From: Dokdonella sp.
GTDB taxonomy: Bacteria > Pseudomonadota > Gammaproteobacteria > Xanthomonadales > Rhodanobacteraceae
Length of the DNA stretch: 64,000 bases
NCBI GenBank assembly: GCA_019634795.1
Contig: JAHCAR010000016.1
Location: 42,587 to 106,586, forward strand
Direction of reading: 5' to 3'
The notes beneath the pieces were generated by a model. The model was not told the origin of the DNA and made no database searches. It saw only the letters and a program-made list of their open reading frames with translations. The position numbers and the translations under genes were made by a program. Positions 45,773 to 54,603 of this stretch are shown here, piece by piece (the stretch's first letter is position 1; each line of letters begins with the position of its first letter).

Positions 45773-45797
45773 GCTCGACGAATCCGGACTTCCGCCC

Positions 45798-45819
45798 AGG
45801 GCCGCCGATCGGCGGCCCT
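45798..45819. other. GC hairpin after the glycine-zipper gene
   Basis: AGGGCCGCC-GATC-GGCGGCCCT is a perfect nine-pair stem 26 bases after the stop codon. No T tract follows, so any terminator role would be weak. Confidence 0.5.
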
Positions 45820-45851
45820 GCCTGCGTGCCGACCCCGCTGATCGGCATCTG

Positions 45852-45880
45852 TTGCACTGCGGCAGAAATGCCGGTAACGT
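45852..45880 (+). promoter_or_regulatory. possible promoter of the arg operon
   Basis: TTGCAC (45852-45857), 17 bases, TAACGT (45875-45880): three of six matches in each box. If used, the RNA would start about ten bases before the leader ATG at 45891, leaving little or no ribosome-binding site. Confidence 0.3.
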
Positions 45881-45890
45881 CAGCGCCGAC

Positions 45891-45995
45891 ATGAACCGAC
45901 AGCCGACCCTCGCCGACATCCTGACCAGCGCCCGCATGGCCGCCGGCATGACCTCGCGCGCGCGCCGACCGATGACTTCCAATCCGGTCGGGTAG
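45891..45995 (+). CDS. putative arginine leader peptide
   Basis: A 34-codon ORF ending at TAG 45993-45995, 78 bases before argF'. It has five Arg, three of them clustered in TSRARRP (codons CGC GCG CGC CGA at 45957-45968). Those codons lie at the start of helix 1:2 of the attenuator described next, and the stop codon lies at the end of segment 2. I see no good Shine-Dalgarno site before 45891. Internal ATGs at 45936 and 45948 are alternatives; the last gives a 15-residue peptide starting MTSRARRP. That it is translated is an inference. Confidence 0.55.
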   Translation: MNRQPTLADILTSARMAAGMTSRARRPMTSNPVG

Positions 45996-46051
45996 CTGTC
46001 GCGCGTTCCAAGTGTTTCGACGAAGACCCGGCCCATGCGCCGGGTTTTTTT
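45965..46051 (+). promoter_or_regulatory. putative ribosome-dependent arginine attenuator
   Basis: Three competing pairings are seen. 1:2 is CCGACCG (45965-45971) with CGGTCGG (45985-45991), seven perfect pairs. 2:3 is GGTCGGGT (45986-45993) with ACCCGGCC (46026-46033), eight pairs with one G-U. 3:4 is ACCCGGC (46026-46032) with GCCGGGT (46039-46045), a terminator stem. A ribosome stalled at the Arg codons would cover segment 1 and free 2 to pair with 3 (read-through). A ribosome at the stop codon would cover 2 and allow termination. This is the arrangement known from trp and his leaders; its role for arginine is inferred. Confidence 0.7.
46026..46051 (+). terminator. intrinsic terminator before argF' (attenuator stem 3:4)
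   Basis: ACCCGGC, loop CCATGC, GCCGGGT followed by seven Ts (46045-46051). A-T and G-U pairs can extend the stem into the T tract. It ends 22 bases before the argF' start codon, so it must be passed for the operon to be expressed from an upstream promoter. Confidence 0.85.
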
Positions 46052-46073
46052 GTTTTCCGAAGGGGGCAACGCC

Positions 46074-47126
46074 GTGAACAACAAGCATTTCCTGAGTACC
46101 CAGGACTGGAGCCGGTCCGAACTGGACGCCCTGCTCGACAAGGCCCGCCAGTTCCGCGACTCCCGCCTCGGCGACCAGCTCGCCGGAAAGTCGATCGCCT
46201 TGCTGTTCTTCAATCCGTCGATGCGCACGCGGACCAGTTTCGAGCTCGGTGCGCACCAGCTCGGCGGCAAGGCCATCGTGCTGGCACCGGGCAAGGATGC
46301 CTGGCCGATCGAATTCGAGGTCGGCTCGGTGATGGATGGCGAGACCGAAGAGCATATCGCCGAGGTCGCCCGGGTGCTGAGCCGCTACGTCGACCTGATC
46401 GGCGTGCGCGCGTTCCCGAAGTTCCAGGACTGGTCGGTCGATCGCGAAGACAAGGTGATCCATGCCTTCGCGAAATACTCGACCGTGCCGGTGATCAACA
46501 TGGAGACGATCACCCATCCATGCCAGGAACTGGCCCACATCATGGCCCTGCAGCAGCATCTCGGTACGCAACTGAAGGGACGCAAGTACGTCCTGACCTG
46601 GACCTACCATCCGAAGCCGCTGAATACGGCCGTGGCCAACTCGGCCCTGCAGATCGCCACGCGCTATGGCATGGACGTGACCCTGCTGTGCCCGACCGAT
46701 GCCTACCTGCTCGATCCGCGCTACATGGACTTCGCCCGTGAAAACGTCGCCGCCAACGGCGGCAGCCTGCGCGTCAGCCACGACATCGAGAGCGCCTACC
46801 GCGATGCCGACGTCGTCTATGCGAAGAGCTGGGGTGCGATTCCGTTCTTCGGCCGCTGGGACGAGGAACGCCTGATCCGTGAAGCCAACAAGCACTTCAT
46901 CGTCGACGAAGCGAAGATGGCCCTGACCAACAACGGCCTGTTCAGCCATTGCCTGCCGCTGCGCCGCAACGTCAAGGCCACCGACGCGGTGATGGATTCG
47001 CCATCCTGCATCGCCATCGACGAAGCCGAGAACCGGCTGCATGTGCAGAAGGCGATCATGGCCGCGCTTGTCGCGCAGTCGGGATTCGGGATGACCAGCC
47101 GTTCGGCTGTTGAAGGCCGGGATTAG
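46074..47126 (+). CDS. argF': N-acetylornithine carbamoyltransferase
   Basis: Carbamoylates N-acetylornithine to N-acetylcitrulline, the variant step of arginine synthesis known from Xanthomonas. The 350-residue product has [15 protein letters not shown] (carbamoyl-phosphate loop), [13 protein letters not shown] and [24 protein letters not shown] and [20 protein letters not shown] carry the Lys region typical of this enzyme rather than ornithine carbamoyltransferase. GTG 46074 has AAGGGGG seven bases before it. The last residues ([14 protein letters not shown]) look like an extension made from repeat sequence. Confidence 0.95.
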
Positions 47127-47232
47127 GGATTGGTCAAGAGCAGGTTCAGCGCGTTTCCCGTCAGCTCAAACTACAGGATTGCCTCATGTCTTCCGCTTTC
47201 CCGAATCCCGAATCACGAATCCCCAATCCCGC
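47116..47232. repeat. heptad inverted repeat, copy 10, overlapping argF' and argG coding ends
   Basis: The left arm GCCGGGATTAGGGATTGG starts inside argF' and supplies its stop codon. The right arm (47200-47232) has CCCGAATCCCGAATCACGAA followed by TCCCCAATCCCGCC and is read as ArgG residues 5-16. A further GTCGGGATTCGGGAT at 47078-47092 lies in argF'. The spacer is longer than in other copies (about 65 bases). Confidence 0.85.
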
Positions 47233-48442
47233 CTCCGGAGAAAGCAAGGACATCGTCCTTGCGTTCTCCGGAGGCCTCGACACGAGCTTCTGCATTCCCT
47301 ATCTGCAGGAACGTGGCTATGCCGTGCATACGGTGTTCGCCGACACCGGCGGGGTCGATGCCGACGAGCGTGCCTTCATCGAGGCGCGCGCGGCCGAGCT
47401 CGGTGCGGCCAGTCACGTCACCGTCGACGGCGGTCCGGCGATCTGGGACGGTTTCGTCAAGCCGTTCGTCTGGGCTGGCGAGGGCTACCAGGGCCAGTAT
47501 CCGCTGCTCGTCTCGGATCGCTACCTGATCGTCGAGGCCGCGTTGCGGCGGGCCGCCGAGCTCGGCACGCGCGCCATCGCCCACGGCTGCACCGGCATGG
47601 GCAACGACCAGGTGCGCTTCGATCTGACCGTCAAGGCGCTCGGCGACTACGAAATCGTCGCGCCGATCCGCGAGATCCAGAAGGAGCACTCCGAGGTTCG
47701 CGCCTACGAACAGAAATACCTCGAGGCGCGTGGCTTCGCCGTGCGCGCGAAACAGATGGCCTACACGATCAACGAGAACCTGCTCGGCCTGACCATGTCC
47801 GGTGGCGAGATCGATCGCTGGGAGGCGCCCGGCGAGGGCGCGCGCGGCTGGTGCGCACCGAAGGCGGAATGGCCAACAAGTGCCTTGCAGGTAAAGTTGA
47901 CGTTTAGGCACGGCGAAGCCGTGGAACTCGACGATGAGCCTTTGGCGGGACATGTCCTGTTGGCCCGCCTCAACCAGATGTTTGCCCGCTACGGCGTCGG
48001 TCGCGGTCTCTACACCGGCGACACCACGATCGGCCTCAAGGGTCGCATTATCTATGAGGCGCCCGGGCTGGCCGCGCTGCTGGTCGCCCATCGCGCGCTC
48101 GAGGAAGCCGTGCTGTCCAAGGCCCAGAACCGCTTCAAGCCGGTGGTCGCGCGGCAATGGGTGGAACTGGTCTACGAAGGCTTCTTCCACGATCCGCTGA
48201 AGGCCGATCTGGAAGCTTTCCTGGCCGCCTCGCAGCGCTGCGTCAACGGCGAGGTGACCCTGCAGACCGAAGGCGGCAACGTGCATGCGGTGGCGATCCG
48301 CTCGCCGCACATCCTCAATGCCAAGGGCGCGACTTACGCGCAGTCGGCCGACTGGGGCGTGGCCGAGGCCGAGGGCTTCATTCGCCTCTATGGCATGAGC
48401 TCGACGCTCTGGGCGGAAGTCAACCGGAAGCCGGCAGGATGA
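47186..48442 (+). CDS. argG: argininosuccinate synthase
   Basis: Joins citrulline and aspartate with ATP. In this pathway citrulline comes from deacetylation of N-acetylcitrulline. It has 418 residues. The ATP-pyrophosphatase P-loop [11 protein letters not shown] lies at about 25-35, then [12 protein letters not shown] and [13 protein letters not shown] 47186 has AGGA seven bases before it and no alternative start exists before the P-loop. So residues [11 protein letters not shown] (5-15), encoded by the heptad repeat, are part of the protein. The stop overlaps the next gene (ATGA). Confidence 0.95.
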
Positions 48443-49527
48443 GCAGCTTGCTCGATGCCACGCTGACGCATCTGCGCGCGCTGGTCGCGTTCGATACACG
48501 CAATCCGCCGCGCGCCATCGGTACCGGTGGCATTTTCGACTATCTGCGCGCGAACCTGCCCGGCTTCGAGATCGAGCTGAGCGATCACGGCGCCGGTGCG
48601 GTCAGCCTGTACGCCGTGCGCGGCAAGCCGCGCTTCCTGTTCAACGTGCATCTCGATACGGTGCCCGATTCGCCGCACTGGAGCGCGAATCCGTTCGAAC
48701 TGCGCCTGGCCGAATCGCGCGCGATCGGCCTCGGTGCCTGCGACATCAAAGGGGCCGCCGCTGCGCTGCTGGCCGCGGCCAGTCGCGTCGACGGCGACGC
48801 GGCCTTCCTGTTCAGCTCGGACGAGGAAGCCAACGATCCGCGTTGCATCGCCGCCTTCCTCGCCCGCGGCTTGCCGTTTGAAGCGGTGCTCGTGGCCGAA
48901 CCGACCCGGGCCGAGGCCGTGCTCGCTCATCGCGGCATCAGTTCGGTGTCGATGCAATTCGCCGGCACCGCCGGACACGCCTCGGCCGAGCAGGGCGCGG
49001 CGGACAGCGCCCTGCACCAGGCGATCCGTTGGGGTGGCCGCGCTCTCGCCCATGTCGAGGCACGCGCCCATGAGCGTTTCGGCGGCCTGACCGGCCTGCG
49101 CTTCAACGTCGGCCGCATCGAAGGCGGCATCAAGGCCAACATGATCGCGCCGGCGGCCGAGCTGCGCTTCGGCTTCCGGCCGCTGCCTTCGACCGATGTC
49201 GACGCGCTGCTCGAGACCTTTCGCGGCTTCGCCGACCCGCCGGCGGCCGGCTTCAGCGAAACCTTTCGCGGGCCGAGCCTGCCCTCGGGCCTGATCGCCG
49301 ATGCCGAGTCGCGCCGGCTCGCGGCGCGCGATGTCGCCGACGCGCTCGACCTGCCGATCGGCAATGCGGTCGATTTCTGGACCGAGGCTTCGCTGTTCTC
49401 CGAGGCCGGCTACACCGCACTCGTCTACGGCCCCGGCGACATCGCCCAGGCCCATGCGGCCGACGAATGGGTCGCTTTCGATCAGCTGCAGGCCTACGCC
49501 GAATCCGTGACCAGGATCCTGACATGA
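48439..49527 (+). CDS. argE': N-acetyl-L-citrulline deacetylase
   Basis: An M20-family metallohydrolase that removes the acetyl group from N-acetylcitrulline to give citrulline for ArgG. It has 362 residues. [13 protein letters not shown] carries the first metal His and Asp, GACDIKGAA the bridging Asp, and SSDEEAND the catalytic Glu pair. The [15 protein letters not shown] dimerization segment follows. Assignment over acetylornithine deacetylase rests on its position between argG and the fused argB in an argF' operon (known for Xanthomonas). Both ends overlap neighbours by ATGA. Confidence 0.92.
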
Positions 49528-50861
49528 ACAAGGCCACGCGCCAGACCCGCCAGACCATCGTGCGCCTGCTTTCGAGCATGGCCAGCGCGAAGGAGATCTC
49601 GCAATACCTCAAACGCTTCTCGCAGCTCGACGCGAAGCGCTTTGCCGTGGTCAAGGTCGGCGGCGCGGTCTTGCGCGACGACCTCGATGCGCTGACCTCC
49701 TCGCTGGCCTTCCTGCAGGAAGTCGGCCTGACCCCGATCGTCGTGCATGGCGCCGGTCCGCAACTCGACGAGGAACTGGCCGCCGCCGGCATCGACAAGA
49801 AGACCGTCAACGGCCTGCGCGTGACCACGCCCGCAGCGCTGGCGATCGTCCGCCGTGTGTTCCAGGCGCAGAACCTCAAGCTCGTCGAGGCCCTGCAGGA
49901 GGGCAATACGCGGGCAACCTCGATCACTGCCGGCGTGTTCGAAGCCGACTATCTCGATCGCGATGCGCTCGGTCTGGTCGGCCGCGTCTGCGCGGTCAAC
50001 CTGGCGCCGATCGAGGCCAGCCTGAATGCCGGCTCGATTCCGGTCATCGCCAGCACCGGAGAAACGGCCGGCGGCCAGATCCTCAACATCAACGCCGACT
50101 TCGCCGCCAACGAGCTCGTGCAGATCCTGCAGCCGTACAAGATCATCTTCCTGACCGGCACCGGCGGCCTGCTCGATGGCGAGGATCGCGTGATCGACTC
50201 GATCAACCTGTCGACCGAGTACGAGCACCTGCTCGCCCAGCCTTGGCTGCACTCGGGCATGCGGGTGAAGATCGAGCAGATCAAGGACCTGCTCGATCGC
50301 CTGCCGCTGACCTCGTCGGTATCGATCACCAAGCCGGCCGAGCTGGCCAAGGAACTGTTCACGCACAAGGGTTCGGGAACGCTGATCCGGCGCGGTGAAA
50401 AGGTCCTGCGCGTGACCTCTTGGGCCGAACTCGACCTGGCGCGCCTGCGCGGGCTGATCGAGTCGAGCTTCTCGCGGGCCCTGGCTGCGGATTACTTCGA
50501 GCGCACCGCGCTGTACCGTGCCTATGTCAGCGAGAACTACCGCACGGCGCTGATCCTGCTCGAAACCGCGGGCGGCACCTACCTCGACAAGTTCGCCGTG
50601 CTCGACGACGCCCAGGGCGAAGGTCTCGGCCGCGCAGTCTGGCAGGTCATGCGCGAGGAGAATCCGCGCCTGTTCTGGCGCTCGCGCCACGGCAATCCGG
50701 TCAATCCGTTCTACTACGCCGAATCGGATGGCTGCTACAAGATGGTCGACTGGAAGGTGTTCTGGTACGGCATCGAGCGCTTTGCCGAGATCGAAGCCTG
50801 CGTCGAACTGTGCCGTTCGCGGCCGGCCACGCTGGCCAGCCCGGCCGGGGTGGCGCCATGA
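49524..50861 (+). CDS. argB: bifunctional N-acetylglutamate kinase/synthase
   Basis: A fusion of an amino-acid kinase domain (about 1-290) and a GNAT acetyltransferase domain (about 290-445), the type described for Xanthomonas and related to the mitochondrial enzymes. [23 protein letters not shown] and [19 protein letters not shown] belong to the kinase. [19 protein letters not shown], then [18 protein letters not shown], are the acetyl-CoA part. No separate argA or argJ is in the window, so this protein probably does both first steps. Arginine feedback is known in the family; no site is proven here. Confidence 0.94.
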
Positions 50862-51832
50862 CGCGCAGGACGATCGGACTGGTCGGCGCGCGCGGGCATA
50901 CCGGCGCCGAACTGATCCGCCTGGCCAGCACCCATCCGGGCCTCGAGCTCGGCTTCGTTTCCTCGCGCGAGCTCGAAGGCCAGCGCGTGGCCGATCATGT
51001 CGAGGGCTACCACGGCGAGCTGCGCTATGTGCTGCTCGATGCCGCGGCCGTCGCTGCGCAGTCGCCCGATGCGGTCGTGCTGGCGCTGCCCAACGACAAG
51101 GCGGCACCGTATGTCGAGGCCCTCGATGCCGGCGGCAGCGAAGCGGTCATCGTCGATCTCTCGGCCGACCACCGCTTCGACGAACGCTGGTACTACGGAC
51201 TGCCCGAACTGACCCGCGCCCGCTATGCCGGACAACGGCGAATCAGCAATCCGGGCTGCTATGCGACCGCGATGCAGCTGGCGATCGCGCCGCTGACCGA
51301 AATGCTGGCCGGGCCGCCGCAGTGTTTCGGCGTCTCCGGCTATTCCGGCGCCGGCACCACGCCTTCGGAGCGCAACGACATCGACAAGCTGCGCGACAAC
51401 CTGATGCCGTATGCGCTGGTCGGCCATGTGCACGAACGCGAGGTTTCGCGCCATCTCGGCCTGCCGGTCGAATTCATGCCGCATGTCGCGCCGCATTTTC
51501 GCGGCATCACGATGACGATCAATCTCTGGCTGCAGCAGCCGGTGAAGCGCGAGGCCATCATCGATCGCTATCGCGACTTCTACGCCGACGAGGCGCTCGT
51601 GCAGGTGGTCGACGAGGCACCCTGGGTCAGCCGCATCGCCGGCCGCCACCATGCCGAGATCGGTGCCTTCGCCGTGGCCGCCGGCGGCCGGCGCGTGGTC
51701 GTCGTGGCCACGCTCGACAACCTGCTCAAGGGCGCCGCGACCCAGGCCCTGCAGAATCTCAATACGGCGCTGGGCTTCGACGAGCTCGAAGGCATCCCGG
51801 TGACCGCCAGGAACAAGGAGGCTACGGCATGA
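50858..51832 (+). CDS. argC: N-acetyl-gamma-glutamyl-phosphate reductase
   Basis: The NADPH-dependent third step of arginine synthesis. It has 324 residues. The dinucleotide motif [13 protein letters not shown] lies at about 7-19, and catalytic Cys is in [28 protein letters not shown] and [17 protein letters not shown] are family blocks. It overlaps argB at the start and argH at the end through ATGA. Confidence 0.96.
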
Positions 51833-53121
51833 GTGACCTGCTCTGGCAGAAGTCGGGGATCGAGACCGACCCGCGCATCATGCGTTTCCTCGCCGGCGCC
51901 GATGTGCTGCTCGATCGCGAGCTGTTCCTGTTCGACATCGAGGCGAGCAAGGCGCACGTCGAAGGTCTGGACAACATCGGCATCCTCAGCGCCGACGAGA
52001 CCGACCGGCTGGTCCGCGAGCTCGAAGCGCTGGCCGGCGATTTCCGTGACGGAGACTTTGTTCTCGATGATCGCTTCGAGGACGGCCATTCGGCGATCGA
52101 GGCGCGCCTGATCGAACGCCTTGGCGACACCGGCCGCAAGGTCCATACCGGGCGTAGCCGCAACGACCAGGTGCTGGTCGCCAGCCGGCTCTGGCTCAAG
52201 GCGCAACTGGACCGATTGTTCGCGACCTGTGCGGCGGTCGCTGGCATCTGTCTCGAGCGCGCCGGGCGCGAGGCTTTGCCTATGCCCGGCTACACGCATC
52301 TGCAGCGCGCCGTGGTGTCCTCGACGGCGATGTGGTTCGCCGGCTTCGCCGAGGCCTACATCGACAATGCCTGGCGCGCGCGTCAGACCCTCGAGCTGAT
52401 CGATGCGAACCCGCTCGGCACCGCCGCCGGTTATGGCGTCAACCTGCCTCTCGATCGCGAGCACACGACGCGCAGGCTCGGCTTCGCGCGCCTGCAGGTC
52501 AGCCCGGTCTACACCCAGCTTTCGCGCGGCAAGTTCGAGATGGCTGCGCTCGACGCCCTGGGTGCCGCCGTACTCGATCTGCGCCGGCTGGCCTGGGACC
52601 TGTCGCTGTTCACCACGGCCGAATTCGGCTTCGTGCACCTGCCGCCGCAGTATACGACCGGCAGTTCGATCATGCCGAACAAGCGCAACCCCGATGTCAT
52701 CGAATTGATGCGTGCCAGCTACGCCAGCGTTGCCGCCGCACGCACCGAGATCGAGCAGCTGCTGTCCCTGCCAAGCGGCTACCAGCGCGACCTACAGATC
52801 AGCAAGGGCTCGGTCCTGCACGGCTTCCATCGTGGACTCGACGCGCTGGCCCTGTTGCCGGACCTGCTGGTCGCGCTCGAATGGGATGCAGCGCGCATGC
52901 GCGCGGCGATCGAGCCAGCCATGCACGCGACCGACGTGGCCATCGAGGCGGCGATTGCCGGCGTGCCGTTTCGTGAAGCCTACCGGGCCGCTGCCGAAAG
53001 CAGCAGTGCGAGCGGGCAGGGCAGGAGCCCCGAGGCGAGCCTCGCCGCGCGCACCTCGCCGGGTTCCGCTGCGGACCTGCGGCTCGATGTGCTGCGCACA
53101 CGCCTTGCTGAATTGACATGA
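51829..53121 (+). CDS. argH: argininosuccinate lyase
   Basis: The last arginine step, cleaving argininosuccinate to arginine and fumarate. It has 430 residues of the fumarase/aspartase superfamily. [29 protein letters not shown] and the signature [13 protein letters not shown] are present. An AGGAG site lies nine bases before ATG 51829. The C-terminal Ser/Ala-rich stretch (about 398-417) looks low-complexity. Confidence 0.96.
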
Positions 53122-53356: not shown

Positions 53357-53442
53357 AAGAACCGCGGATGGGTGGCGCGGGTTTCTTGGGCGGTCCTCGC
53401 GTTTCGGCTTCGTTGTTGGCCACAGCGCCCGATGATTCGCGC

Positions 53443-54603
53443 ATGAGCACCCAGGCCTCGACGCAACCCTCGCGAGCGTTTTCGGAACAGCCGCTGCCAA
53501 GCTGGCGTCGGGCCGTGCTCAAGGTCGGCAGCAGCCTGCTGACGGAGGACGGGGCCGGACTCAGTCGGCGCCATCTGCTCGCCCTCGCCAATTTCGTCAC
53601 ACACAGCCTGGCGGCCGGGCGCGAAGTCATCATCGTCTCGTCCGGTGCGGTCGCCGCAGGCCGCGCGATCATGCCGACCCAGCCGGCCCGCGGCGCCGCC
53701 ATGGCCGCGCGCCAGGCCTTCGCCGCGCTCGGCCAGGCGCGCATGGTCGGCCTCTGGCAGGACTGCCTGGCGCGGCCCGTTGCCCAGGTCCTGCTGACCC
53801 ATGACGACCTGCGCAACCGGCGCCGCTATCTGAATGCGCGGGCCACCCTGGGCGAATTGCTGCGTCTCGGTGCGTTGCCGGTAATCAATGAGAACGACAC
53901 GGTCTCGGTCGACGAGCTCAAGCTCGGCGACAACGACAACCTGGCCGCGATCGTCGCTGCCCTGGTCGAAGCCGACCTGCTGCTGATCGCGACCGATATC
54001 GACGGCCTGTTCACGGCCAATCCCCGAACCGACCCGAGCGCACGGCCAGTCGAGATCATCGACAGTACCGACCCCGCAGCGCTGGCCATGGCCGGCGAGG
54101 CAGGCACGGCGGCCGGCACCGGCGGCATGCGCACCAAGATCGAGGCGGCGACGCGGGCGGCAAGGGCCGGCATCGACACCGTGCTGTTCAACGGCACGGA
54201 CGCCGGCACGGTGGCCCTGCTCGGCCGGGGGCGACTGCGCGGCACGCGACTGCGGGCCGGGCAGACACGCCTGGCCGCGCGCAAGCACTGGCTGCAGCAG
54301 GTGCCATTGGCCCCGGGGTCGCTGCTGGTCGACGAAGGCGCGGCCGAGGCCCTGGTCGGCAAGGGTGCATCGCTGCTGCCCGGTGGCATCCTCGGCGTGC
54401 GCGGGGAATTCGCTCGCGGCGACATGGTCGCCATCGCGGTCGCAGCGGAACAGGGCGAGCGACGCATCGCACGCGGACTGAGCCAGTATTCCGCCGCCGA
54501 CGTGCGCCGCATCGCGCGCCGCCACAGCCGCGACATCGAAGGCGTGCTCGGCTACAACTACGGCGAAAGCGTGATCCATCGCGACGACATGGTGACGGAC
54601 TAG
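53443..54603 (+). CDS. proB: glutamate 5-kinase
   Basis: The first committed proline step, phosphorylating glutamate. It has 386 residues: an amino-acid kinase domain ([42 protein letters not shown]) and a C-terminal PUA domain (about 295-370). ATG 53443 is chosen because the upstream extension runs into the REP region. proA follows after four bases. Confidence 0.95.

Follow-up and report, generated by a model that had tools for sequence, protein, structure and literature searches.

What controls the arginine operon of Dokdonella? The DNA considered here, referred to as the window, is a stretch of 64,000 nucleotides (nt) from Dokdonella sp. (GenBank assembly GCA_019634795.1, contig JAHCAR010000016.1, positions 42,587 to 106,586 of the forward strand). 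Directly 5' of its argF' gene, at 45852-46074 on the plus strand, lies a leader region comprising a predicted promoter, a leader open reading frame (ORF), a 2:3 antiterminator and a 3:4 terminator, and the question it raises is what such a leader would sense. A preliminary description of the window had proposed that the supply of charged tRNA-Arg sets expression of argF'GE'BCH. Comparison of sequences supports that proposal on four counts: the Arg codons of the leader, the joint variation of helices 2:3 and 3:4, the fixed spacing between codons and antiterminator, and Arg-rich leaders in sister families. We consider it quite probable that the leader controls transcription by ribosome-mediated attenuation and senses arginine supply via Arg-tRNA. 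An attenuator as such is very likely, and we infer that arginine is the likely signal.

Architecture of the leader and proposed mechanism

The leader ORF has 34 codons (45891-45995, plus strand, as are all features of the leader) and encodes MNRQPTLADILTSARMAAGMTSRARRPMTSNPVG*. Its Arg cluster reads CGC, an Ala codon (GCG), CGC and CGA at 45957-45968, with CGA at 45966-45968; the ORF and cluster of the preliminary description were verified base by base. Segment 2, the 5' arm of the antiterminator, occupies 45986-45993 and overlaps the stop codon (45993-45995) by one base, its last. Segment 3 (46026-46033) is at once the 3' arm of the antiterminator and the 5' arm of the terminator, whose 3' arm, segment 4 with the U-run, follows at 46039-46051. 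All three helices first described and the run of seven Ts (46045-46051) are present in the window. Helix 1:2, in which segment 1 (45965-45971) pairs with 45985-45991, has 7/7 pairs, helix 2:3 has 8/8 with one G-U, and helix 3:4 has 7/7, the first T of the run doubling as the final base of the latter. An inner helix (45997-46022) is predicted, in the fold of the window's own copy (L001), to extend the antiterminator hairpin. The folding energy of the whole stretch is no better than that of shuffled sequences (z 0.38), and therefore single-sequence folding energy is no evidence for the arrangement.

Under the proposed mechanism, transcription would start just upstream of the leader AUG, with a ribosome trailing the polymerase. 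When Arg-tRNA is scarce the ribosome would stall within RARR, with CGA as the most likely codon; as its leading edge would then stay short of segment 2, segments 2 and 3 would pair, and transcription would read through into argF'GE'BCH. When Arg-tRNA is plentiful the ribosome would reach the stop codon and cover segment 2, the 3:4 terminator would form, and a short leader RNA would be released. Given the size of its footprint, a ribosome at RARR would leave segment 2 free and one at the stop codon would cover it. We infer that the leader is translated, that the ribosome stalls, why it does so and in which direction expression responds; the elements themselves, their conservation, their joint variation and their spacing can be read in the sequences described below.

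Conservation of the antiterminator and terminator

Families were coded f1 to f12, f1 being the window's own, and the order was sampled with 200 genomes. The argF' gene was searched for in 147 f1 genomes and upstream regions were taken from 130 of them (17 were not taken); over all families, upstream regions were drawn from f1 to f10, with those of f11 and f12 outside the comparison. The fair set consists of 143 leaders located by argF' position, 130 from f1 and 13 from f2-f4. A wider set of 226 leaders (223 distinct) was fetched partly by the core pattern or by peptide expressions, so that peptide invariance in it is partly by construction. Chance matches L143, L148 and L157 were excluded, and locus L305 has only 41 bases. 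Pairing counts out of 220 omit six of the 226 leaders, three without a matched terminator and three by segment-2 position or pairing. A MAFFT alignment (A1) covers 69 of 70 selected stretches, L013 being left out; because segment 3 is displaced by one base in part of the rows of A1, a script was used to count the pairs.

The terminator search was matched by 223/226 leaders; of the misses, L156 and L231 end early and L128 has a variant stem. The search expression fixes most 3:4 positions and only three could vary in pairing, the two most variable of which pair in 220/220 leaders (shuffle maxima 198 and 193). At the informative position of helix 2:3 (n=220), C-G is found in 164 leaders, T-A in 41, T-G in 12 and a mismatch in 3; it is thus paired in 217/220, compared with a mean of 186.8 and a maximum of 194 in shuffles. 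In line with the compensatory change that the preliminary description had suggested looking for in 2:3 and 3:4, the segments vary together among relatives. On an argF' tree of 99 loci each arm changes 9-10 times.

The spacing of these elements is equally regular. At an offset of exactly 21 nt past the CGA codon, six segment-2 bases all pair with segment 3 in 174/223 leaders; the count falls to 141-154 in 20 re-pairings among sequences and to 0-10 at 15 other offsets. The best segment 2 begins exactly 21 nt from R7, the last Arg residue of RARR, in 184/223 leaders and 17-24 nt from it in 216/223. Sixteen leaders have their stop outside the usual 24-30 nt, and in 12 of these segment 2 is still 17-24 nt from R7, which makes a stall at the stop codon unlikely as the conserved event. 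When the fold is masked as for a ribosome at R7 and segment 4 is left out, 2:3 forms in 214/220 leaders with a median of -23.9 kcal/mol; the terminator hairpin has -14.0 kcal/mol in the same analysis. The ORF and the alternative 2:3 pairing are both kept in relatives, where a lack of either had been named as grounds for abandoning the proposal. The attenuator reading is borne out both by the leaders located by argF' position and by the test at a fixed offset.

Promoter and initiation

The predicted sigma-70-type promoter (45852-45880) consists of TTGCAC at 45852-45857, a 17-nt spacer and TAACGT at 45875-45880, and the ATG follows 10 nt past the -10 box with no clear Shine-Dalgarno sequence. 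Within the searched stretch 5' of the leader ATG, 201/207 relatives have a TTG, and the best -35/-10 pair has a median score of 9.3, against 0 in base-shuffled upstream regions. The ATG follows the best -10 box at a distance of 6-11 nt in 83 of the 201 and 24-27 nt in 98; transcripts of the former class, which includes the window, would begin no more than a few bases from the AUG. The preliminary description had noted the want of a clear ribosome site as a caveat, and indeed a Shine-Dalgarno-like motif precedes the leader start in only 12/207 relatives. The leader probably does without such a site because its mRNA is nearly leaderless, and an attenuator with a nearly leaderless leader ORF is suggested.

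The leader peptide and its codons

The conserved core of the peptide, SARMAAGMTSRARR (45927-45968), was defined among the 143 argF'-located leaders. With Gly of SAxxAAGMTSRARR taken as position 0, A-5, A-2, M1, T2, S3, R4, A5, R6 and R7 are each present in 143/143 and G0 in 141/143. Third codon positions vary: the four Thr codons are used 58, 50, 31 and 4 times, and all four Gly codons occur. Because the residues are fixed while third positions vary, the core appears to be under selection as amino acids, beyond constraints on the RNA alone. No sequence match to the leader peptide was found in Pfam, NCBIfam or PDB.

Two codons depart from this freedom. That of R7 is CGA in 141/143 leaders (219/226 in the wider set, with CGG once in 226), while CGA makes up 45/2122 Arg codons in the 99 argF' genes of f1-f4. 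That of S3 (45954-45956 in the window) is TCG in 140/143, and argF' genes use TCG 641 and AGC 600 times; the preference for TCG looks like a nucleotide-level constraint of unexplained origin. Pairing of TCG with CGA within the core is unsupported, as the exceptions do not co-change. The residue that follows RR is Pro in 137/143 leaders (201/226 in the wider set). Conserved Arg codons, which the preliminary description had suggested looking for across Lysobacterales, are seen in these leaders of f1-f4, RARR in all 143 and its CGA in nearly all. In L013, from the same-genus genome G121, the leader stops five codons early, with the segment-2 sequence and terminator still downstream.

Distribution of the leader and its counterparts in sister families

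One leader is present in each of the 130/130 f1 argF' upstream regions. The core pattern matches 78/200 order genomes, once each: 34/34 in f1, 34/35 in f2, 3/3 in f3 and 7/10 in f4. Of the four f2 and f4 genomes without a match, two have variants with Ser in place of Gly (L306, L304), and in the other two the contig breaks off in or at argF'; the remaining 118 genomes, outside f1-f4, have no match. Read backwards, the pattern matched 0/200 order genomes. A scan of public genomes with the core pattern gave at least 117 loci; among the matches listed, 109 have argF' downstream, 6 end too early to judge, one of them a Mycobacterium record treated as a chance match, and 2 (Lentzea, Cryobacterium) are without argF'. 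One of the 109, from a metagenome bin labelled Rhizobium (L206), has both the leader and an argF' with 80% identity over the match; it is perhaps a mis-binned contig, or a transfer. Five of the 200 order genomes had no argF' match (G185, G231, G235 and G263 of f9, G199 of f12), and several others of f9 had very weak ones. Such genomes may use another carbamoyltransferase, or the pathway may be absent.

In f5-f10 a terminator precedes argF' in 24/26 regions, the exceptions being L281 (f6) and L296 (f10). All of the terminator-bearing loci, which belong to f5 and f7-f10, have a leader ORF with an Arg cluster (24/24). These clusters hold 4.33 Arg per 7 codons, compared with 0.90 in shuffles, and 22/24 are significant at p <= 0.05, the others giving 0.08 and 0.09. 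Their peptides are without MTSRARR and unrelated to the core, and one has six consecutive Arg. CGA accounts for 43/147 of the Arg codons in these leaders, a far larger share than in the f1-f4 argF' genes. Segment 2 was located automatically in 15/24 loci. Read naturally, these sequences suggest that attenuation by Arg codons came first and that the peptide became fixed later, in the ancestor of f1-f4.

The repressor ArgR, searched for by its PF01316 domain, had no match in the window's own genome, which is 85% complete, and was found in 8/200 order genomes, all of f12. In these eight (G157, G166, G174, G181, G187, G193, G205 and G211) argF' matched only distant carbamoyltransferases, with E of about 1e-57 to 1e-69. 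ArgR and the argF' leader may be mutually exclusive, and the attenuator appears to serve many families of an order in which ArgR is found in one. For decoding of the Arg codons, ARAGORN was run on 30 of 40 tRNA-match loci in the window's own genome and predicted tRNA-Arg genes acg, ccg, cct and tct, one each. The acg tRNA-Arg, with inosine, would read CGC, CGT and CGA. In Salmonella his-leader assays CGA was decoded less well than CGU or CGC, according to the available text of PMC4046918.

Homology to the small RNA Xoo5

Judged by position, peptide core and gene, the window leader is homologous to Xoo5 (Rfam RF02242), an RNA already catalogued in relatives. The window stretch scores 30.7 bits against RF02242, below the gathering threshold of 50. 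All f2 loci tested were above it (9/9, up to 145.6 bits), and so were 28/200 order genomes, every one of f2. L031 (36.8 bits), L002 (30.8), L136 (27.6) and L307 (23.4) fell below, and the search gave no match for L304, L282 and L284.

As described in the available portion of PMC3039613, sRNA-Xoo5 is flanked by PXO_00354 and by PXO_00353, a gene to which that paper gives the name N-acetylornithine carbamoyltransferase. Its 5' end was determined by RACE (rapid amplification of cDNA ends) and its 3' end from a clone, giving 124 nt, and Northern blots showed bands of about 130 and 100 nt, with two bands early in growth and a single band afterwards. The Rfam model is likewise 124 long and begins cuAUG, its start aligning 2 nt before the leader AUG in L315; this would put the mapped 5' end of Xoo5 two bases before the leader AUG. 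By position and homology Xoo5 is the same RNA as the leader. It was catalogued as a small non-coding RNA. The available text of PMC3039613 does not tie an ORF, arginine codons or attenuation to Xoo5, and remarks in general that some clones from 5' untranslated regions may attenuate transcription. The attenuator function proposed here would give a role to a small RNA listed in Rfam, the 5' end of which has been mapped since 2011.

Evidence against the attenuator and alternative explanations

Several observations weigh against an arginine attenuator of the kind proposed. In the first counts segment 2 was taken to be the stretch that best complements segment 3, a choice that favors pairing; the fixed-offset test avoids that selection. 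Only 3-4 independent pairs of changes fall on well-supported branches of the argF' tree, too few for a sign test, and the joint variation of the segments is accordingly strong by count and modest by independent events. With the front of the leader masked and segments 2, 3 and 4 all free, the terminator wins in just 37/220 leaders. From the Xoo5 start to the end of the U-run L315 measures 157 nt, which is longer than the Xoo5 bands; processing or a sizing error is possible. Salmonella speF orf34, according to the available text of PMC6386406, sensed arginine equally well with rare or frequent Arg codons, and because of this indifference to rarity CGA need not matter. The fold of the leader without a translating ribosome is poorly defined: the helix 1:2 of the preliminary description is complete in 5/220 relatives and has 6/7 pairs in 122/220. 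Finally, a plain sensor of charged tRNA needs no invariant peptide.

Helix 1:2, with its 7/7 pairs in the window, has modest support in relatives, and as a strictly conserved element it is not borne out. The A of CGA faces a C in 204/220 leaders, and it is unlikely that CGA is kept merely for base pairing, since CGG would pair better in most relatives and yet is found once in 226. The energy of the 1:2 duplex exceeds that of 95% of shuffles in 3/220. In folds of the whole leader, segment 2 pairs upstream in 142/220 and the terminator is formed in 143/220; the corresponding counts in ten codon-shuffled sets are 99-127 and 117-136. These models favor some upstream sequestering of segment 2, with no single conserved helix shown.

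Because the peptide is conserved as amino acids, the nascent chain SAxxAAGMTSRARR may strengthen or tune the stall in f1-f4. A more specific proposal, which we advance tentatively and at somewhat less than even confidence, is a hybrid sensor: the invariant chain SAxxAAGMTSRAR would prime the ribosome and thereby make its decoding of the slow CGA highly dependent on Arg-tRNA. Just as tentatively, codon-starvation attenuation may here have been fused with an arrest peptide, in an order where plain Arg-run attenuators would replace ArgR. The order offers a natural gradation, with leaders of plain Arg runs at one end and a fixed peptide at the other, in which a shift from codon sensing to nascent-chain sensing is open to direct testing.

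The chain could also be the whole sensor. A true arrest peptide, in which SAxxAAGMTSRAR itself would halt the ribosome at RR, with arginine or Arg-tRNA either lifting or setting off the halt, is an alternative that we consider less likely than not. It would readily explain nine residues invariant in 143/143 leaders over variable third codon positions, and the roughly 13 conserved residues behind RR would occupy the exit tunnel. That the core keeps its distance from segment 2 in those 12 of 16 leaders whose stop has moved points to a conserved stall at RARR, and the residue after RR is not fixed. On the other hand, sister families have the same layout with plain Arg clusters, which argues that the chain is not needed for the switch. 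The conservation of CGA as a codon points to decoding, and the peptide resembles nothing in the three databases searched.

A second possibility is that the locus produces an independent small RNA, Xoo5, or a peptide acting in trans like peTrpL, and that the terminator merely ends its gene. Xoo5 was cloned and short RNAs appear on Northern blots in the available text of PMC3039613, the peptide is conserved, and the available text of PMC7298713 reports that the leader peptide peTrpL is required for regulation of another operon. With argF' downstream in 109 of at least 117 public loci, an antiterminator arm at a fixed distance from the Arg codons that would have no role, and Arg-rich leaders at the same place in other families that fit attenuation in cis, we regard this explanation as improbable, although the RNA or peptide may act in trans as well as in cis.

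That a metabolite riboswitch or T-box drives the terminator, with the ORF incidental, is very improbable: such switches typically target operons like this one, but the conserved part is coding sequence with synonymous change, and neither kind was among the Rfam matches at gathering thresholds or among those up to E 10 in 45780-46090, where the sub-threshold matches were Xoo5, rnk_pseudo, anti-hemB, Leu_leader (15.1 bits) and PyrR204. An ordinary terminator of an upstream gene, with ORF, Arg codons and complementarity arising by coincidence in GC-rich DNA, where Arg codons are common and the folding energy is ordinary, can be dismissed as next to impossible, being refuted by the conservation of the leader, its joint variation, spacing and Arg enrichment, and by the end of the upstream ORF matching PRK11280 at 45772, more than 250 bases before the terminator.

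The operon and neighboring genes

The gene argF' itself (46074-47126, plus strand, GTG start) encodes N-acetylornithine carbamoyltransferase and matches NF003384 with 608.9 bits (cut-off 288). The remainder of the operon, at 47186-53121 on the same strand, comprises argG, an argE'-type acetylornithine deacetylase, an argB-type acetylglutamate kinase, argC and argH. The last scores 269 bits, just below its cut-off of 279.5, and the other operon genes are above theirs. Some 250 bases or more past argH lies proB (glutamate 5-kinase; 53368-54600, same strand), and if transcription reads on past argH, proline synthesis might come under the attenuator as well. Many f1 leaders (for example L032 and L053) have, about 200 nt upstream, a conserved frame on the opposite strand, ending SAGxTLTRTRRRSPGS; it seems to be the antisense of the end of the neighboring PRK11280-type gene. 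A tRNA scan of five loci with this frame found none.

Comparison with known systems

The trp, his, leu, thr, ilv and phe leader attenuators of enteric bacteria combine codons for the product of the operon with a 2:3 antiterminator and a 3:4 terminator, and the standard leader-peptide attenuators are not known to include arginine. The Dokdonella leader shares with them a short ORF with codons for the product, a 2:3 antiterminator and an intrinsic 3:4 terminator before the first gene. It differs in its amino acid, in its weak helix 1:2, in probably being nearly leaderless, and in a peptide sequence conserved across four families. A conserved leader peptide that senses arginine for arginine biosynthesis is known from fungi, the arginine attenuator peptide of arg-2/CPA1. 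Unlike the leader described here, it is eukaryotic and acts at the level of translation, with the stall at the stop codon when arginine is high.

The open literature yielded no recognised arginine-codon attenuator before argF' or another arginine operon in this order; subscription papers were mostly outside the search. Neither argF nor arginine occurs in the main text of a survey of premature terminators (PMC2965389), and the word Xanthomonadales is absent from the main text of a paper on ArgR regulons (PMC5343134). In the available text of PMC8632094 arginine appears only in other contexts, and that of PMC1262725 describes T-boxes as RNA-level control of arginine genes elsewhere, with nothing before the arginine operons of Actinobacteria.

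Two bacterial systems come closer. Pseudomonas aeruginosa carAB, as cited in the available text of PMC4997734, resembles the leader in having a leader peptide and proposed attenuation at a gene of the arginine and pyrimidine pathways; it is a different gene, however, and there arginine is reported to act transcriptionally and attenuation is ascribed to pyrimidines. Salmonella speF orf34, in the available text of PMC6386406, is like the Dokdonella leader a conserved 34-amino-acid peptide with consecutive Arg codons, although its core, HIRRT (DUF2618), looks unrelated. It precedes an ornithine decarboxylase gene and works through Rho-dependent termination and RNase G rather than through an intrinsic terminator before an arginine operon. 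According to the same text, ribosome pausing on the Arg codons of orf34 at low arginine raises downstream expression, the sign of response that we propose for argF'GE'BCH.

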